DNA of 64,000 nucleotides, taken from assembly GCF_013410565.1 (NCBI RefSeq), contig NZ_JACCFO010000001.1, positions 1,178,001-1,242,000 on the forward strand, written 5' to 3'. Origin of the DNA: Streptomonospora nanhaiensis. GTDB taxonomy: Bacteria > Actinomycetota > Actinomycetes > Streptosporangiales > Streptosporangiaceae. The notes under the pieces are model-generated. The model saw only the letters and a program-made list of their open reading frames with translations. It searched no databases and was not told the DNA's origin. The position numbers were made by a program, and so were the translations under genes. Below are positions 57,026 through 63,396 of the stretch, piece by piece (within the stretch, counting starts at the first letter, position 1; every line of letters starts with the position of its first letter).

Positions 57026-58255
57026 ATGACCGGCCCCCGCACCCTGCTCGCCCTCTCGGCCGCCGCCGCGCTGCTGTGGTCGGCGGCGGCCGTGCCCGCC
57101 TCGGCGGACCACGGCGGCCACCGCCCCGGCGGCGAGGTCCGCTTCGCCACCTTCAACGCCTCGCTGAACCGGCCCCAGGAGGGCGGCCTGGTCGCCGACC
57201 TGTCCACCCCCCACGACGCGCAGGCCCAGGACGCGGCCGAGGTCATCCAGCGCACCCGGCCCGACGTGCTGCTGGTCAACGAGTTCGACTACGACTCCGA
57301 GGGGCGGGCCGCCCGCCTGTTCCAGCGCAACTACCTCTCCCACGGCCAGAACGGCGCCGAGCCGATCCACTACCCCTACCGCTACACCGCTCCCAGCAAC
57401 ACCGGCGTGGCCAGCGGCCTGGACCTCGACAACGACGGGCGCACCGTGACCGAGCCCGGGCAGGGCGGCTACGGCGACGACGCCTACGGGTTCGGCGCCT
57501 TCCCCGGCCAGTACGGGATGGTGGTGTACTCCCGCTACCCCATCGACACCGGCGCGGTGCGCACCTTCCAGACCTTCCGCTGGGCCGACATGCCCGGCGC
57601 GCTGCTGCCCACCGACCCCCAGACCGGCGAGCCCTTCTACTCCGACGAGGAACTGGAGCGGTTGCGGCTGTCGTCCAAGAGCCACTGGGACATCCCCGTG
57701 CGCACCGGCCGCGGCAAGCCCGTCCACCTGCTCGCCGCCCACCCCACGCCGCCCTCCTTCGACGGCCCCGAGCGCCGCAACGTGGCCCGCAACCACGACG
57801 AGAACCGCTTCTTCGCCGACTACGTCTCGCCCGGCCGCGGCGGCTACATCTACGACGACGACGGCCGCCGCGGCGGCCTGCGCCCCGGCGCGCGGTTCGT
57901 GATCGCCGGCGACCTCAACGCCGACCCCAACGACGGCGACGGCCACCCCGACGCCACCCGCCAACTGCTGGAGCACCGCCGCGTCAACGGCGGCCTGCTG
58001 CCCGCGAGCGAGGGCGGGCCCCAGGCCGCCGCGGCCCAGGGCGGCGCCAACACCGGGCACACCGGCGATCCGGCCCACGACACCGCCGACTTCGGCGACG
58101 TCCCCGGCCCCGGCAACCTGCGCGTGGACTACGTCCTGCCCTCGCGCGGGCTGCCGGTGCGCGGCACCGGGGTGTTCTGGCCCGCCGCCGGCGAGCCCGG
58201 CGCCGAGGCGGCCGCCGCCTCCGACCACCACCTGGTCTGGCTGGACGTGCGCTGA
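57026..58255 (+). CDS. Secreted endonuclease/exonuclease/phosphatase-family protein
   Basis: 409 residues. Signal peptide (~1-28, ending ASADHGGH), then an EEP-fold metallohydrolase. Catalytic markers are RFATFNASLNRP, DVLLVNEFDYD (metal Glu), HLLAAHPTPPSFDG, VIAGDLNADPNDGDG and the terminal SDHHLVWLDVR. The insertion between them (YRYTAPSNTGVASGLDLDNDG) is common in secreted actinobacterial members. The substrate may be nucleic acid or a phospho-compound. ATG 57026 gives the intact signal peptide. Confidence 0.88.
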   Translation: MTGPRTLLALSAAAALLWSAAAVPASADHGGHRPGGEVRFATFNASLNRPQEGGLVADLSTPHDAQAQDAAEVIQRTRPDVLLVNEFDYDSEGRAARLFQRNYLSHGQNGAEPIHYPYRYTAPSNTGVASGLDLDNDGRTVTEPGQGGYGDDAYGFGAFPGQYGMVVYSRYPIDTGAVRTFQTFRWADMPGALLPTDPQTGEPFYSDEELERLRLSSKSHWDIPVRTGRGKPVHLLAAHPTPPSFDGPERRNVARNHDENRFFADYVSPGRGGYIYDDDGRRGGLRPGARFVIAGDLNADPNDGDGHPDATRQLLEHRRVNGGLLPASEGGPQAAAAQGGANTGHTGDPAHDTADFGDVPGPGNLRVDYVLPSRGLPVRGTGVFWPAAGEPGAEAAAASDHHLVWLDVR

Positions 58256-58264
58256 GGCCGAGCG

Positions 58265-58288
58265 CGTGCGGGGCCGCCGCCCCGCACG
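58265..58288 (+). terminator. Terminator after the EEP-family gene
   Basis: 10-base arms (58265-58274, 58279-58288) with a CGCC loop, nine bases past the stop codon. Confidence 0.6.
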
Positions 58289-58401
58289 GGCTCCGCGCCC
58301 GCCGGGTGTAACCGCCCCGCACCCGGGTACCGCGCACCTACACAGGCCCCGCCCGGCCGAGCCGCCGGGCGGGGGCGGCCTGCGGACGAGCGGGGGCGAG
58401 C

Positions 58402-59067
58402 ATGGAACGGGGCGGCAGACGGGCCGAGGGCGCCGGTCTCGCGGAGTACCGGCGCAAGCGCGACTTCGACCGCACCCGCGAGCCCGAGGGCGCCCCGCGC
58501 CGCAAGCGCCGGGGCCGCGGCGAACCCGTGTTCGTCGTCCAGCACCACGTCGCCCGGCGCGAGCACTACGACTTCCGGCTGGAGGTCGACGGCGTGCTGA
58601 AGTCCTGGGCGGTGCCCCGCGGACCCTCCACCGACCCGCGCGCCAAGCGGCTGGCCGTGCCCACCGAGGACCATCCGCTCGACTACGCCGAGTTCGAGGG
58701 CACCATCCCCGCCGGCGAGTACGGCGGCGGCACCGTGCTGGTCTGGGACACCGGCACCTACACCAACACCACCAGCAAGAAGGGCCGTGAGCTGACCATG
58801 GCCGAGGGCCTGGAGCACGGCCACGTGTCGTTCCGGCTGCACGGCGAGAAGCTCAGCGGCGGCTACGCCCTCAACCGGTTCCGCGGCGACGACGGCGAGG
58901 AGGCATGGCTGCTGGTCAAGGAGAAGGACGCCGCCGCCGACCCCCGCACCGACCCCGTCTCCACCCGGCCGGAGTCGGTGCGCACCGGCCGCGTCCTGGC
59001 CGAGGTCGCCGACGACGACGGCCGCACCCTGCAGGGGCGGCCCCGCGACCCGGGCGCCGACCGGTGA
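58402..59067 (+). CDS. DNA-ligase-D-type 3'-phosphoesterase domain protein
   Basis: 221 residues. Corresponds to the phosphoesterase (PE) module of LigD, which trims 3' ends during non-homologous end joining. The key sequence FVVQHHVARREHYDFRLEVDGVLKSWAVPRGPS contains the conserved His and Arg residues. DHPLDYAEFEGTIPAGEYGGGTV follows. It is free-standing: no ligase domain is attached. The stop overlaps the next gene by four bases (GTGA). Confidence 0.92.
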   Translation: MERGGRRAEGAGLAEYRRKRDFDRTREPEGAPRRKRRGRGEPVFVVQHHVARREHYDFRLEVDGVLKSWAVPRGPSTDPRAKRLAVPTEDHPLDYAEFEGTIPAGEYGGGTVLVWDTGTYTNTTSKKGRELTMAEGLEHGHVSFRLHGEKLSGGYALNRFRGDDGEEAWLLVKEKDAAADPRTDPVSTRPESVRTGRVLAEVADDDGRTLQGRPRDPGADR

Positions 59068-60017
59068 GCGCGGAACCGGCCCGGCTGCGCGCGGGGGCGC
59101 GCACGGTCGCGGTGGGCCGCCCCGGCAAGGAGCTGTTCGGCGCCGAGGGGGTCACCAAGCGGGAGCTGGCCGAGCACTACCGCGCCGTGGCCCCGGTGAT
59201 GCTGCCCCACCTGCGCGGGCGCCCGCTGGCCCTGCACCGCTTCCCCGACGGGATCTCGCCCGACGCCGGCACCGAGGGGTTCTACCAGAAGCAGCTGCCC
59301 GCCCACGCCCCCGACTGGGTGAAGGGCGTGGAGGTGCGCCGCGAGCACGGCGGCAGCATCACCATGGTGGTCTGCGACGACACCGCCACCCTCGTGTGGC
59401 TGGCCGACCAGGCGGTGATCACCCCGCACCCGTGGCTGAGCCGCGCCGGGCACCTGGACCGCCCCGACCGCGTCATCGTCGACCTCGACCCCTCCGGCGC
59501 GGACTTCGCGCTGGTGCGCGCCGCCGCCCGCGACGTCCGCACGGCCCTGGAGGAGATCGGGCTGGCCGCCTTCACCATGACCACCGGCTCGCGCGGGCTC
59601 CACGTGGTGGCCCCCGTCCGGCCCGAACTCGACTTCGCCGGCGCCCGGGAGTTCACCCGCGGCCTGGCCGAGCTGGTGGCGCGGCGCCGGCCCGACGCCT
59701 ACACCACCGAGTTCCGCAAGGCCAAGCGCGCCGGGCGGCTGTTTTTGGACGTGCTGCGCAACGCCTACGCCCAGCACGCCGTGGCCCCCTACGCGGTGCG
59801 CGCGCTGCCCGGAGCACCGGTGGCGGTGCCGCTGGACTGGGCGGAGCTGGACGGCGTGGAGTCGGCGGGGGCCTGGACGGTGCGCACCCTGGGGCGGCGG
59901 CTGGCCGAGAACCGCGAGGCGGGCGGCGACCCCTGGCACGGGATGGCGCGGCACGCGCGCTCCCCGCGGCGGGCCGCCGAGCGGCTGGAGCGGCTGCTGC
60001 GCGACACCGGCGGCTGA
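59064..60017 (+). CDS. DNA-ligase-D-type polymerase (primase-like) domain protein
   Basis: 317 residues. Corresponds to the LigD polymerase module, an archaeo-eukaryotic-primase-fold enzyme filling gaps in end joining. The two catalytic Asp are in VIVDLDPSGADF; further motifs are GFYQKQLPAHAPDWV, MTTGSRGLHVVAP and RRPDAYTTEFRKAKRAGRLFLD. GTG 59064 overlaps the PE gene, so the two are made together. No ku or ATP-dependent ligase gene is in the window; they must be elsewhere if the pathway is complete. Confidence 0.93.
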   Translation: MSAEPARLRAGARTVAVGRPGKELFGAEGVTKRELAEHYRAVAPVMLPHLRGRPLALHRFPDGISPDAGTEGFYQKQLPAHAPDWVKGVEVRREHGGSITMVVCDDTATLVWLADQAVITPHPWLSRAGHLDRPDRVIVDLDPSGADFALVRAAARDVRTALEEIGLAAFTMTTGSRGLHVVAPVRPELDFAGAREFTRGLAELVARRRPDAYTTEFRKAKRAGRLFLDVLRNAYAQHAVAPYAVRALPGAPVAVPLDWAELDGVESAGAWTVRTLGRRLAENREAGGDPWHGMARHARSPRRAAERLERLLRDTGG

Positions 60018-60067
60018 GGGGCGCAGCGCCACTCCCCCGCCGCGCCGCGCGGGCCAGGGCGCGCGAC

Positions 60068-60448
60068 TCAGCGTGCGGCGCGCTCCTCCTCGGCGGCCTC
60101 CAGGCCGGCCTCGATCACGCCGGCCATGATGCGGGCCAGCCGCGCGGCGCCCAGCCGGGGCGCGCGCTCGGCCATCGCCGCCACCAGCGCCCGCTCGCGC
60201 TCGGGGTCGCGCCCGGCGAACCCGCCCACCGGCTTGAGCCGCTGCACGTCGGCGGCGAGCAGGGCGCGGCGCTCCAGGAGGTCGGCGAGCTGGGCGTCGA
60301 TGCGGTCGATGCGCTCGCGCAGTTCGCCGACGCCGGCGGAGGGCGCGGGGACGCGGTGCGGCGCGGCGGCCGGGAGGTCAGCGGGGTCGGCGGTGGGGGC
60401 GGCGCCGGCCGGGTCGAGGGTACGGGTGGTCTCAGCCATCTCAGCCAT
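60068..60448 (-). CDS. Chorismate mutase (AroQ type)
   Basis: 126 residues. Converts chorismate to prephenate, the first step to Phe and Tyr. After a ~45-residue Ala/Pro-rich lead, the helical AroQ domain starts GELRERIDRIDAQLADLLERRALLAADVQRLKP, with the conserved Arg, Asp, Lys/Arg and Glu of this fold. DPERERALVAAMAERAP is the second helix. ATG 60448 follows GGAGAG. Its mRNA leader carries a peptide with Phe and Tyr codons and a terminator, so it is probably controlled by attenuation. Confidence 0.92.
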   Translation of the reverse strand: MAEMAETTRTLDPAGAAPTADPADLPAAAPHRVPAPSAGVGELRERIDRIDAQLADLLERRALLAADVQRLKPVGGFAGRDPERERALVAAMAERAPRLGAARLARIMAGVIEAGLEAAEEERAAR

Positions 60449-60508
60449 GGTCTCTCCGTGTTGGTGGCGCGGCCGCTCCACTCCGGTCGCGGAGCCGCCG
60501 CTGGAAGC

Positions 60509-60543
60509 AAAAAGGAGCGCAAGGCCGATGCCTTGGCGCTCCT
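60509..60543 (-). terminator. Attenuator terminator upstream of chorismate mutase
   Basis: On the minus strand a 13-bp stem (one bulged base) with loop ATCG is followed directly by five T. Arms on the plus strand are 60513-60525 and 60530-60543. This is the only hairpin I noticed in the window with a proper T-run. It lies 61 bases upstream of the chorismate mutase start and 30 bases past the leader peptide stop. An earlier 7-bp hairpin (60565-60571 with 60577-60583) has the leader stop codon in its loop. Confidence 0.8.
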
Positions 60544-60572
60544 GAGCCGGCGTGCGGACCGCGACCGCTGGG

Positions 60573-60632
60573 TCAACCAGCGGGCGACCGGCGCGCAGCC
60601 GGCTGCCTAAAGTCGCGATAGCCGAAGATCAT
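60573..60632 (-). CDS. Leader peptide of the chorismate mutase attenuator
   Basis: 19-codon ORF encoding MIFGYRDFRQPAARRSPAG, with Phe3, Tyr5 and Phe8, the end products of the pathway it precedes. It stops inside the loop of a hairpin that comes before the terminator. There is no ribosome site; a TACACT -10 ends eight bases before the ATG, so the transcript probably begins at the ATG. Starved Phe-tRNA or Tyr-tRNA would stall the ribosome within the first eight codons. Confidence 0.75.
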   Translation of the reverse strand: MIFGYRDFRQPAARRSPAG

Positions 60633-60639
60633 GGCGTTG

Positions 60640-60645
60640 AGTGTA
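60640..60645 (-). promoter_or_regulatory. -10 of the chorismate mutase leader transcript
   Basis: TACACT on the minus strand, fitting TAnnnT. The predicted start is at or next to the leader-peptide ATG (60632). No good -35 is seen. Confidence 0.5.
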
Positions 60646-60701
60646 GCGCGGCCCGCCGCCCCTCCGGGTCGGTGCGGCCGGTTCGGCGGCGGGCCGGCGC
60701 G

Positions 60702-62498
60702 CTAGCGCTTGGCGTACATCTCCTCGATGGCGGCGGCGTAGCGGTCGGCGATCCGGGCGCGGCGCAGCTTGAGCGTGGGCGTCATGGTCTCGGTCTCGAC
60801 GCTGAAGGGCTCGGGCAGGATGCGGAAGGCCCGGATGGACTCCGCACGCGAGACCGCCCGGTTGGCGGCGTCGACCGCCTTCTGCACCTCGGCGCGCACG
60901 GCGGGGTCGGAGTCGGGGTCCCCGGCGGCCGGGCGGCCCTCGCGTTCGCGCCAGGCGGCGAGTTCGTCGGCGTCCAGGGTGATCAGCGCGCCGACGAAGG
61001 AGCGGCCGTCGCCCACCAGCATGCACTGGTCGACCAGCGGGTGGGCGCAGACGCGCTCCTCGGCGGGCACCGGCGAGACGTTCTTGCCGCCGGCGGTGAC
61101 CAGGATCTCCTTCTTGCGGCCCACGACGCGGACGTAGCCGTCGTCGTCGACCGCGCCGAGGTCGCCGGTGGCGAACCAGCCGTCGACGAACGCCGCCTTG
61201 GTCTCCTCGGGGCGGTTCCAGTAGCGGGTGAACACCGGCCCGCCCCGGACCAGGAGCTCCCCGTCGTCGGCGAGGCGGACCTCGACCCCGGGCAGCGGGC
61301 CGCCGATGGTGCCCGGCCGCACCCGGCCCGGCGTGTTGGCCAGCACCGCGGCGGTGGTCTCGGTCAGCCCGTAGCCCTCGTAGACCTCCAGGCCGATACC
61401 CCGGTAGAAGTGCAGCAGGCGCGGCTCCAGCGCACCGCCGCCGGAGATCACGCGACGGCAGCGCCCGCCCAGCGCGCCCGTAAGCCGGCGGTAGACCAGC
61501 GCGTTGAAAAGGCGGCGGCGCAGCCGCAGCAGCGGACCGGGGCCGCCCTCGTCCAGGGCGGTGCTGTAGGCCACCGCGGTGGCGGTGGCGGCGTCGAAGA
61601 TCCGGCGGCTCAGGCCGCTGGTGCGCTTGCGCGCCGTGGCGTGGATCTTCTCGAAGACGTAGGGCACCGCCAGCAGGAACGTGGGCCGGAACGTGCCGAG
61701 GTCGGCGATGAGGGAGCGGACGCTGGCGGTGTGGCCCAGGCAGGCGCCCGCGTGGATGACGCCGACCTGCACCATGCGGCCGAAGACGTGGGCCAGCGGC
61801 AGGAACAGCAGGGTGGAGGGCGGGGTGCCGTCGGGCTCGGGCTCGAAGACCACGCCCAGTTCCTGCACCACCGCCGCGATCTCGGCGCGGAAGTTGGCGT
61901 GGGTGAGGACGCAGCCCTTGGGCGAGCCGGTGGTGCCCGAGGTGTAGACGATGGTGGCGGGGTCCTCCACCGCCACGCCCGCGCGGCGCTCCTCCACCGC
62001 GGAGTCGGGCACCCCCGCGCCCGCCTCGCGCAGCCGGTCCAGCGCGCCGGAGTCGAAGGTCCACACCCGGGCCAGGCCGGGCAGCCGGTCGCGCAGGCCC
62101 TCGACCAGGGCCGTGTGCTCGGCGTCGTCGACCGCGCAGGCCACCGCGCCGGAGTCGTCGAGGATCATCGCGACCTGCTCGGCCGACGACGACGGGTAGA
62201 CGGGCACGGACACGGCGCCGGCCGTCCAGACGGCGTAGTCCAGCAGGGTCCACTCGGGGCGGTTGGCCGACAGCAGGCCCACCCGGTCGCCGGGGCCCAC
62301 CCCGGCGGCGATCAGCCCCTTGGCCAGGGCCACGACGTCGTCGCGCACCTGGGCCGCGGTGCGGACGCGCCACCCGTCGGCCTCGCGCACGCTGATCATG
62401 GGCGCGTCGGGATGGCGCCGGGCGCGGTCGAAGAGGGTCTCTGCCAGGCCGCCGTCGACGCCCAGCGGCCGCGGGGGCGGGGAGGAGAAGCTGGTCAC
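60702..62498 (-). CDS. fadD: Long-chain acyl-CoA synthetase (FadD15-like)
   Basis: 598 residues, ATP-dependent fatty-acid:CoA ligase of the ANL superfamily. The AMP-binding P-loop is TIVYTSGTTGSPKGCVLTHANF. Further motifs are LLFLPLAHVFGRMVQ, EGYGLTETTAAV and WFATGDLGAVDDDGYVRVVGRKKEILVTAGGKNVSP. GTG 62498 (VTSFSSPPP) is chosen because a TATACA -10 at 62512-62507 would start transcription about two bases before it. An in-frame GTG at 62525 lies upstream of that -10. Gene symbol is by family. Confidence 0.92.
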   Translation of the reverse strand: MTSFSSPPPRPLGVDGGLAETLFDRARRHPDAPMISVREADGWRVRTAAQVRDDVVALAKGLIAAGVGPGDRVGLLSANRPEWTLLDYAVWTAGAVSVPVYPSSSAEQVAMILDDSGAVACAVDDAEHTALVEGLRDRLPGLARVWTFDSGALDRLREAGAGVPDSAVEERRAGVAVEDPATIVYTSGTTGSPKGCVLTHANFRAEIAAVVQELGVVFEPEPDGTPPSTLLFLPLAHVFGRMVQVGVIHAGACLGHTASVRSLIADLGTFRPTFLLAVPYVFEKIHATARKRTSGLSRRIFDAATATAVAYSTALDEGGPGPLLRLRRRLFNALVYRRLTGALGGRCRRVISGGGALEPRLLHFYRGIGLEVYEGYGLTETTAAVLANTPGRVRPGTIGGPLPGVEVRLADDGELLVRGGPVFTRYWNRPEETKAAFVDGWFATGDLGAVDDDGYVRVVGRKKEILVTAGGKNVSPVPAEERVCAHPLVDQCMLVGDGRSFVGALITLDADELAAWREREGRPAAGDPDSDPAVRAEVQKAVDAANRAVSRAESIRAFRILPEPFSVETETMTPTLKLRRARIADRYAAAIEEMYAKR

Positions 62499-62616
62499 CC
62501 TTCCGGTGTATAGGACCGCCCGCACCCGTTCCCACCGGGGGCGGCATGATCTATTTCATAGCCGCGCGCGGACCCGCGCCGCGCCGGTCCCCCCGGCGGC
62601 CACGCACCCGGCCGCC

Positions 62617-63396
62617 TCACAGGGCGTGGCCGCCCGCCACCTGCACCACCTGCCCGGTGATCCAGCGGGCCTGGCGCGAGGCCAAGAACACCACGGCGTC
62701 GGCGATGTCCTCGGGCGTGCCCACCCGCCCCAGGGGGATGGCCCGGCTCACCTCGGCGACGAGGGCGTCGTCCATCCAGCCGGTCTGCACGGGGCCCGGC
62801 GCCACGGCGTTGACGCGCACGCCCGCCCCGCCCAGGTCCAGCGCGGCGGCGCGGGTCAGCGCCTCGACCGCGGCCTTGGAGGTGCCGTAGCCGATCTGGC
62901 CGGGGAACGCGCGGGCGGCGTCGGTGGAGATGTTGACGGCGCAGGACGCCGCTCCGGTCGGGGTGCGGCGGGCGAGTTCGGCGATGAGCAGGGCGGGCGC
63001 GGCGGCGTTGACCCGGTAGGCGCGGGCGAGGCCCTCGGCGGTGAGCGCGTCGAAGGAGTCGGGGTTCTCGCAGTGGGCGGCGTTGTTGACCAGCACCTCC
63101 ACCCGGCCCAGGCGGCGTTCGACCGCGTCCAGGAGCCGCGGGGCGGCGTCGGGGGCGGCGAGGTCGACGCCCACGGCGACCGCGCCGGGGAGTTCGGCGG
63201 CCAGCCGCTCGGCGGCCTCGGCGCCGGGGGCGGTGTGCTCCCAGGCCACACCGTCGGGCGGGGGCTGCGGGGTGTCGAGGTAGTGCACGGCCACCCGGGC
63301 GCCCTGGTCGGCGAAGGCCCGCGCGATGGCGGCCCCGATCCCGCCGGCGGCTCCGGTCACGAGCACGGCACATCCGCTCAGTCCGGTGTCGATCAT
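62617..63396 (-). CDS. SDR-family oxidoreductase
   Basis: 259 residues, classical short-chain dehydrogenase. Cofactor motif VLVTGAAGGIGAAIARAF, structural VLVNNAAHC, catalytic Ser in AVNISTDAARAF, and the Tyr-x3-Lys pair in YGTSKAAVEAL. RVNAVAPGPVQTGW and DIADAVVFLASRQARWITGQVVQVAGG close the fold. It resembles 3-oxoacyl-ACP reductases but the substrate is not known. No ribosome site precedes ATG 63396; a CACACT seven bases upstream suggests a leaderless mRNA. Confidence 0.9.
   Translation of the reverse strand: MIDTGLSGCAVLVTGAAGGIGAAIARAFADQGARVAVHYLDTPQPPPDGVAWEHTAPGAEAAERLAAELPGAVAVGVDLAAPDAAPRLLDAVERRLGRVEVLVNNAAHCENPDSFDALTAEGLARAYRVNAAAPALLIAELARRTPTGAASCAVNISTDAARAFPGQIGYGTSKAAVEALTRAAALDLGGAGVRVNAVAPGPVQTGWMDDALVAEVSRAIPLGRVGTPEDIADAVVFLASRQARWITGQVVQVAGGHAL

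Follow-up and report, generated by a model that had tools for sequence, protein, structure and literature searches.

The leader upstream of the chorismate mutase (CM) gene in the DNA of Streptomonospora nanhaiensis that we analysed (64,000 nucleotides, hereafter the window) is probably a ribosome-mediated attenuator of this gene. The proposal is supported by sequence evidence of several kinds, i.e. the leader itself, selection on its codons, the promoter spacing, competing RNA helices, a terminator and a match between the codons and the branch of the pathway. The leader is conserved, and it would add a new target, together with an RNA family that is widespread and absent from Rfam 15, to a known kind of regulation, with a switch that is possibly unusual.

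All elements of the leader lie on the minus strand. The -10 element TACACT (60640..60645) is located 7 nt upstream of the leader ATG at 60632, and the transcript is probably leaderless. The leader ORF with its stop (60573..60632) has 19 codons and encodes MIFGYRDFRQPAARRSPAG. Its Tyr codon TAT (60618..60620) is a candidate sensor, a Tyr preceding the control Phe in most CM leaders, and codon usage in relatives points to Phe-8 (TTT, 60609..60611, next base A) as the control codon. Four segments in and behind the ORF have alternative partners. The sensor-codon segment Z (ATCGCGAC, 60612..60619) can pair with B0 (GTCGCGGT, 60558..60565), which lies 3' of the stop codon and could also pair with A2. 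Within the ORF, A1 (GCCGGCTGCG, 60594..60603) has A2 or B as its partner, and A2 (CGCCGGTCG, 60585..60593, limits approximate) can form either a hairpin with A1 or a helix with the stop region. B (CGCACGCCGGC, 60546..60556) lies directly 5' of the intrinsic terminator (60509..60543) and can pair with A1 or with the D element (AGCGGCGGCTCCGC, 60489..60502, limits approximate), which is complementary to B and lies 3' of the T-run. The terminator consists of the stem AGGAGCG(c)CAAGGC-ATCG-GCCTTGCGCTCCT (60543-60513, 13 bp with one bulged C) and a run of five T (60513-60509). The Shine-Dalgarno sequence GGAGAG (60452..60457) and a stand-alone CM of 126 amino acids follow (60068..60448, start at 60448; Pfam CM_2, E 1.4e-13). 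Convergent with the CM gene are two plus-strand ORFs, 58402-59067 and 58905-60017, which overlap in different frames and carry LigD_N (the DNA ligase D phosphoesterase domain) and the LigD primase-polymerase domain.

The original prediction had listed the 19-codon leader, TACACT, the stop-codon hairpin, the 13-bp stem and the downstream CM, and we confirmed each of them at its exact minus-strand position. Two details need rewording. The stem was said to be followed by T5; both the stem and the five-T run exist, but the first T doubles as the last base of the 13-bp stem, leaving four T after it. The 7-bp hairpin enclosing the leader stop (CCGCTGG..CCAGCGG, 60583-60565) is present as well, but in the predicted fold it is only the tip of a longer hairpin with A1 (in the second half of the ORF) and B as its arms. 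The claim that this is the sole T-run terminator of the window holds, as scanning both strands of the 64 kb for hairpins (fold energy < -12) directly adjoining TTTTT gave this site alone. A terminator scan of 58000-63000 gave one terminator-like site against 0.4 expected, which is a shorter version of the CM terminator. The fold of the leader RNA has a z-score of -3.7, with 0 of 200 shuffles as good.

The leader is found in front of CM genes in many relatives. Of 109 loci upstream of CM or a CM-containing fusion, 72 combine a short ORF, its stop and a T-run, the ORF having a Phe codon at a constant position, with the search pattern itself having demanded the Phe-codon motif and the T-run. The loci were drawn from 134 genomes with a CM match, 90 of which were read; 26 further loci brought the number to 116, and seven were dropped. 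Six of these seven look like second copies, and the other (L036) carries the leader and has no demonstrable twin. The 109 loci retain at least five second copies, one with the leader (L051, left out of the counts based on 71 leaders) and four without it (L034, L038, L041 and L049), and include two from non-actinobacterial MAGs (L055 and L056). In some of the 37 misses the gene is a fusion, and the 900 nt taken were too few to reach the leader; R1, a covariance model that we built from 56 CM leaders, matches leaders in several genomes counted as misses, e.g. G003, G065 and G139. At the Herbidospora loci CM is present and the leader was not found in the stretch read, and of the six genomes examined from the same genus as the window, three lack both a CM match and an R1 match. 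In three cases (L018:838-1824, L016:886-1764 and L163:312-1316) the gene behind the leader joins CM_2 to part of a DAHP-synthase-like domain (about positions 79-201 of 270); long open frames at CM loci suggest many more fusions, while the CM of the window stands alone.

The CM leader peptides resemble MDRRYFGFTQPAPGEPVAVT, MTHRYFVFSQPTHPSAAFT or that of the window. The closest named CM locus is that of S. mangrovi (L031), with a CM 97% identical over residues 40-112. Alignment in relatives had been set beforehand as a refuting check, and both the Phe/Tyr codons and the terminator stem turned out to be conserved; the T-run varies in length and is short (CTTTC) in many relatives. A TANNNT element stands 6-7 nt before the leader start in 61 of the 67 leaders whose upstream region was long enough (one sequence being counted twice), compared with 1 of 259 control windows from the same regions having it in the 6-11 nt slot. 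This spacing supports leaderless transcription, as had been proposed from the window alone. Leaderless transcription is also reported for several S. lividans leaders in the passages of PMC8079986 available to us.

Codon usage in the leaders singles out one Phe codon. The last Phe before A1, which we call the control codon, is encoded by TTT in 67 of the 71 leaders and by TTC in four, and all 43 Phe codons that come earlier in these leaders are TTC. The downstream ORFs, as far as they were fetched, use TTT at none of 45 Phe codons and TAT at none of 34 Tyr codons, and five ORFs of the window likewise have TTT in 0/45 and TAT in 0/38; Tyr in the leaders is encoded by 42 TAT and 9 TAC. The original prediction had pointed to the Phe and Tyr codons of the leader in general. 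They are conserved as a feature, but the conserved control is Phe-8, often preceded by Tyr, and Phe-3 occurs in just 2 of 72 leaders, namely that of the window and that of S. mangrovi. Tyr is present in 49 and missing in 22 of the 71 CM leaders; ten of the 71 have fewer than two Phe/Tyr residues, and some keep little beyond one Phe. It may be that the Tyr codon does not act as a sensor, since Tyr availability is described as being without effect on the aroF operon of C. glutamicum in the part of PMC11802643 that we used. The base after the control codon is A in 70 of 71 leaders (ACG, ACC, ATC, AGC, ATG, AGG or AGA), even where rare Arg codons result, as in the window (60611-60608). As the A is kept whatever the next amino acid, the constraint may lie partly on the RNA. 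The spacing from the control codon to A1 has zero gaps in the alignment of 56 leaders, and hence a ribosome halted at the control codon would cover part of A1.

Covariation suggests that the leader can adopt competing helices. Our helix statistics come from the alignment of 56 CM leaders; swapping and shuffling leave the effect of shared ancestry in place, and we therefore take these tests as strong hints and not as proof. For A1:B together with A2:B0, 92.7% of the cells are paired and 29 cells have a double change, against 8.0 in the shuffles (0/500 reach this), and pairing falls below 48% when the partner is slid along. In A1:B, six pairs have a double change versus 3.4 in shuffles (4/500), with 15 pair types versus 13.2 (42/500). 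The alternative helix A1:A2 is 98.4% paired, with nine double-change cells versus 2.0 (0/500 shuffles); its double-change pairs and pair types, the measures least affected by ancestry, are not above the shuffles (234/500 each). A1:A2 and A1:B are mutually exclusive, and the covariation of A1:A2 is the weaker. RNAalifold alone picked A1:A2 and part of the terminator, not A1:B. The mean duplex energy of Z:B0 is -9.6 in 70 CM leaders versus -8.5 with swapped partners (0/400), and -15.4 versus -12.0 in 34 DAHP synthase leaders (0/300); a clean double change is seen in L095. The mutually exclusive helices involve the leader ORF and the sensor codons, as would be expected of an attenuator.

The predicted folds change with the position of the ribosome while the terminator stays. 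In the ensemble predicted for the free RNA, A1:B (mean of 8.2 pairs) together with A2:B0 (6.4) dominates, with Z:B0 (1.5) in a minor role. A ribosome two codons before the control Phe is predicted to leave A1:B in place (10.1 mean pairs). With the ribosome at the Phe codon A1:B goes down to 4.4 and A2:B0 is retained at 7.7, and both are lost in the prediction when the ribosome is at the stop codon. The terminator helix T1:T2 is predicted in all four states with means of 11.7-11.9 pairs over 70 leaders, and it falls more than two pairs below its stop-codon-state value in just one to three leaders. Stalled and completed translation would thus differ in the adjoining hairpin and not in the terminator itself.

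The arrangement had been called that of classical attenuation, and on this point our results give no support. Not only is the terminator predicted in all four ribosome states, but the folding check for an antiterminator also gave no conserved partner of the terminator 5' arm (T1) in 46 windows across 66 leaders. This search took every second 10-nt window from -18 to +43 nt of the control codon and in the last 45 nt ahead of the terminator, the T1 arms of other species serving as controls. The best of the 46 windows starts four bases before the control codon (z -2.1). The stretch round this codon, P, gives slightly longer runs with T1 than swapped partners do (4.96 versus 4.71, 0/500), but the energies are not clearly better (40/500), making it a weak lead; P:T1 has the wrong sign for an antiterminator because a halted ribosome covers P. 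Without a conserved partner of T1, we infer the link between fold and termination.

We propose that attenuation would work as follows. RNA polymerase would start at or beside the leader ATG, and a ribosome would begin on the leaderless 5' end. When charged Phe-tRNA, and perhaps Tyr-tRNA, is plentiful, the ribosome should reach the stop codon and cover A2 and B0; with both leader folds thus prevented, the terminator would halt transcription before CM. When Phe- or Tyr-tRNA is short, the ribosome would presumably stall at the rare TAT/TTT codons and thereby remove the Z:B0 hairpin, and the B0/B stretch could then fold back on A1/A2. The resulting long hairpin would abut the terminator, and we would expect more read-through into CM. 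The step that we infer above all is the weakening of the terminator by the A:B hairpin, which does not overlap the terminator.

Leaders of the same design precede DAHP synthase genes as well. R1 matches 117 of the 200 family genomes and, at the level of the class, 55 of 394. Its matches stand before type-I DAHP synthase, recognized by motif, in at least five cases within the family and at 11 of the 16 loci read outside it; the other five of the 16 precede CM, with Pfam CM_2 in 5/5. PF00793 confirmed the identity of the DAHP synthase at three R1 loci, two of them outside the family. A second model, R2, built from the DAHP synthase leaders, matches 61 of the 394 genomes of the class and 106 of the 200 of the family, many of the family matches being CM leaders again, and a DAHP synthase or CM motif lies within ~1.5 kb at 59 of 59 checked genome-wide R2 loci. 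At least 44 loci among the matches listed have a DAHP synthase leader, and three of them were not parsed, leaving 41. A T-run was not seen at one DAHP synthase leader locus (L169). Six loci of one family (L203, L205-L208 and L210, family f4) form a distinct subgroup, YWRFI[EK]APGGAD[KN]AQ.

The codon content of the leaders tends to follow the metabolic branch. The DAHP synthase leaders read RWYWRF, RWYAYF, YWRF or RRYPYF, and their control codon is TTT in 39 of 41. In the stretch ending with the control Phe, 25 of the 41 contain Trp and 16 lack it, against none with Trp among the 71 CM leaders (Fisher p 1.7e-14, without correction for ancestry). DAHP synthase serves Trp, Tyr and Phe, and chorismate mutase serves Tyr and Phe only, which fits this tendency. 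Four genomes in which both loci were read (G238, G342, G351 and G360) carry a leader at each of the two, in front of DAHP synthase and in front of a CM gene. In the genome of the window itself, one DAHP synthase (G000:C1:1362886-1363602, L177; PF00793 with a ferredoxin-like domain) is preceded by a leader that we spotted by eye and that neither R1 nor R2 detected; it encodes MQHSFWRFYGYRPTARTVARQALR, which includes Phe, Trp and Tyr, and is accompanied by TATAGT and a strong terminator hairpin. Leaders were not found by eye at the other type-I DAHP synthase of this genome (L176), nor at its pheA, and a second R1 match there (L168, E 0.28) looks like chance. We regard it as possible, but on balance doubtful, that one RNA design serves two aromatic control points throughout the actinomycetes, with codons that spell the branch, and that folds competing for B control the terminator without capturing its arm, through a neighbouring helix or ribosome-dependent folding kinetics. 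The literature passages that we searched do not describe attenuation of this sort.

Control could instead act on translation or mRNA fate after read-through, with the terminator as a constant brake and B, once freed by a stalled ribosome, pairing with D to rearrange the region before the ribosome-binding site. We consider this unlikely. B:D does pair better than swapped (0/300) and shuffled (0/100) partners in 69 leaders, and with the ribosome halted at Phe it is predicted to rise in 47 of 70 leaders and to fall in seven. However, it rises at the stop codon too (mean 0.29 free, 0.55 halted and 0.46 at stop) and so hardly separates the states, and the predicted accessibility is unchanged both for the Shine-Dalgarno sequence (Wilcoxon p 0.53; up in 21 and down in 18 of 70) and for the CM start codon (p 0.14). 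It is decidedly improbable that the ORF is simply a small-protein gene with its own terminator, CM not being regulated. The promoter element and the terminator would suit such a gene, but the codon bias confined to one site, the codon-pathway match, the paired segments and the 59 of 59 checked R2 loci near a DAHP synthase or CM motif argue against it; the 109 CM loci, having been picked upstream of CM, have no bearing here.

An arrest by the nascent peptide, of which TnaC is an example, would have the peptide halt the ribosome on sensing free Phe or Tyr, and would account for the similar residues 3' of the control Phe in many relatives (F[ST]xPAPGEP). We think this very improbable, since the similar part overlies the paired A1 and A2, so that RNA structure can explain the likeness, while the residues before the control Phe vary widely and the same stretch reads differently in other clades, e.g. 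PTDPSAALT or PARERSAAG. Least credible, and to us scarcely worth entertaining, is a riboswitch, T-box or other known RNA class. A long structured leader would favour such a class, but a search with the 4227 Rfam models gave nothing at E<=1 near the leader, with one weak match at 58998-59023, and nothing at gathering score in 12 related loci. Ribosome-mediated attenuation is the reading that we keep.

If true, the Phe/Tyr pathways of many actinomycetes, some of which make aromatic-derived antibiotics, would gain a built-in amino-acid sensor at CM and DAHP synthase. The leader would also allow attenuation in GC-rich genomes to be studied in a leaderless system where a single control codon dominates.

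The closest known leader is AroR of aroF in Corynebacterium glutamicum, reportedly described by Neshat et al. in 2014. By its description in the parts of PMC11802643 and PMC4046766 that we used, it is likewise actinobacterial, has Phe-Tyr-Phe before a gene of the aromatic pathway and is reported to be induced when Phe is limiting (PMC11802643); its target is DAHP synthase, whereas that of the window leader is chorismate mutase. The DAHP synthase leaders of other actinomycetes share the design of the window leader. In E. coli, pheA encodes a chorismate mutase-prephenate dehydratase controlled through pheL by charged Phe-tRNA, and pheL has a run of Phe codons, a ribosome-binding site and a classical antiterminator. 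Unlike pheL, leaders of the window type have one control TTT, mostly with Tyr, and are probably leaderless, and an antiterminator was not found in them. Both place a Phe leader in front of a gene whose product has chorismate mutase activity, and charged Phe-tRNA would be the signal for the window leader as it is for pheL, which PMC11802643 also mentions. The trp, ilv and leuS leaders of Streptomyces and Corynebacterium, as the excerpts of PMC1262725 and PMC8079986 describe them, are also actinobacterial short peptides, several leaderless and several with terminators, for amino acids other than Phe/Tyr. Two F/Y uORF candidates in a figure legend of PMC6429828 likewise contain Phe/Tyr and are linked to genes of shikimate metabolism. 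Our literature search, with most subscription papers beyond reach, found AroR and no leader before an actinobacterial chorismate mutase. Conserved RNA structures were not seen upstream of phenylalanine/tyrosine operons in the Actinobacteria studied in PMC1262725, according to the passages at hand, and the CM leader, if we are right, would bring RNA control to those pathways.
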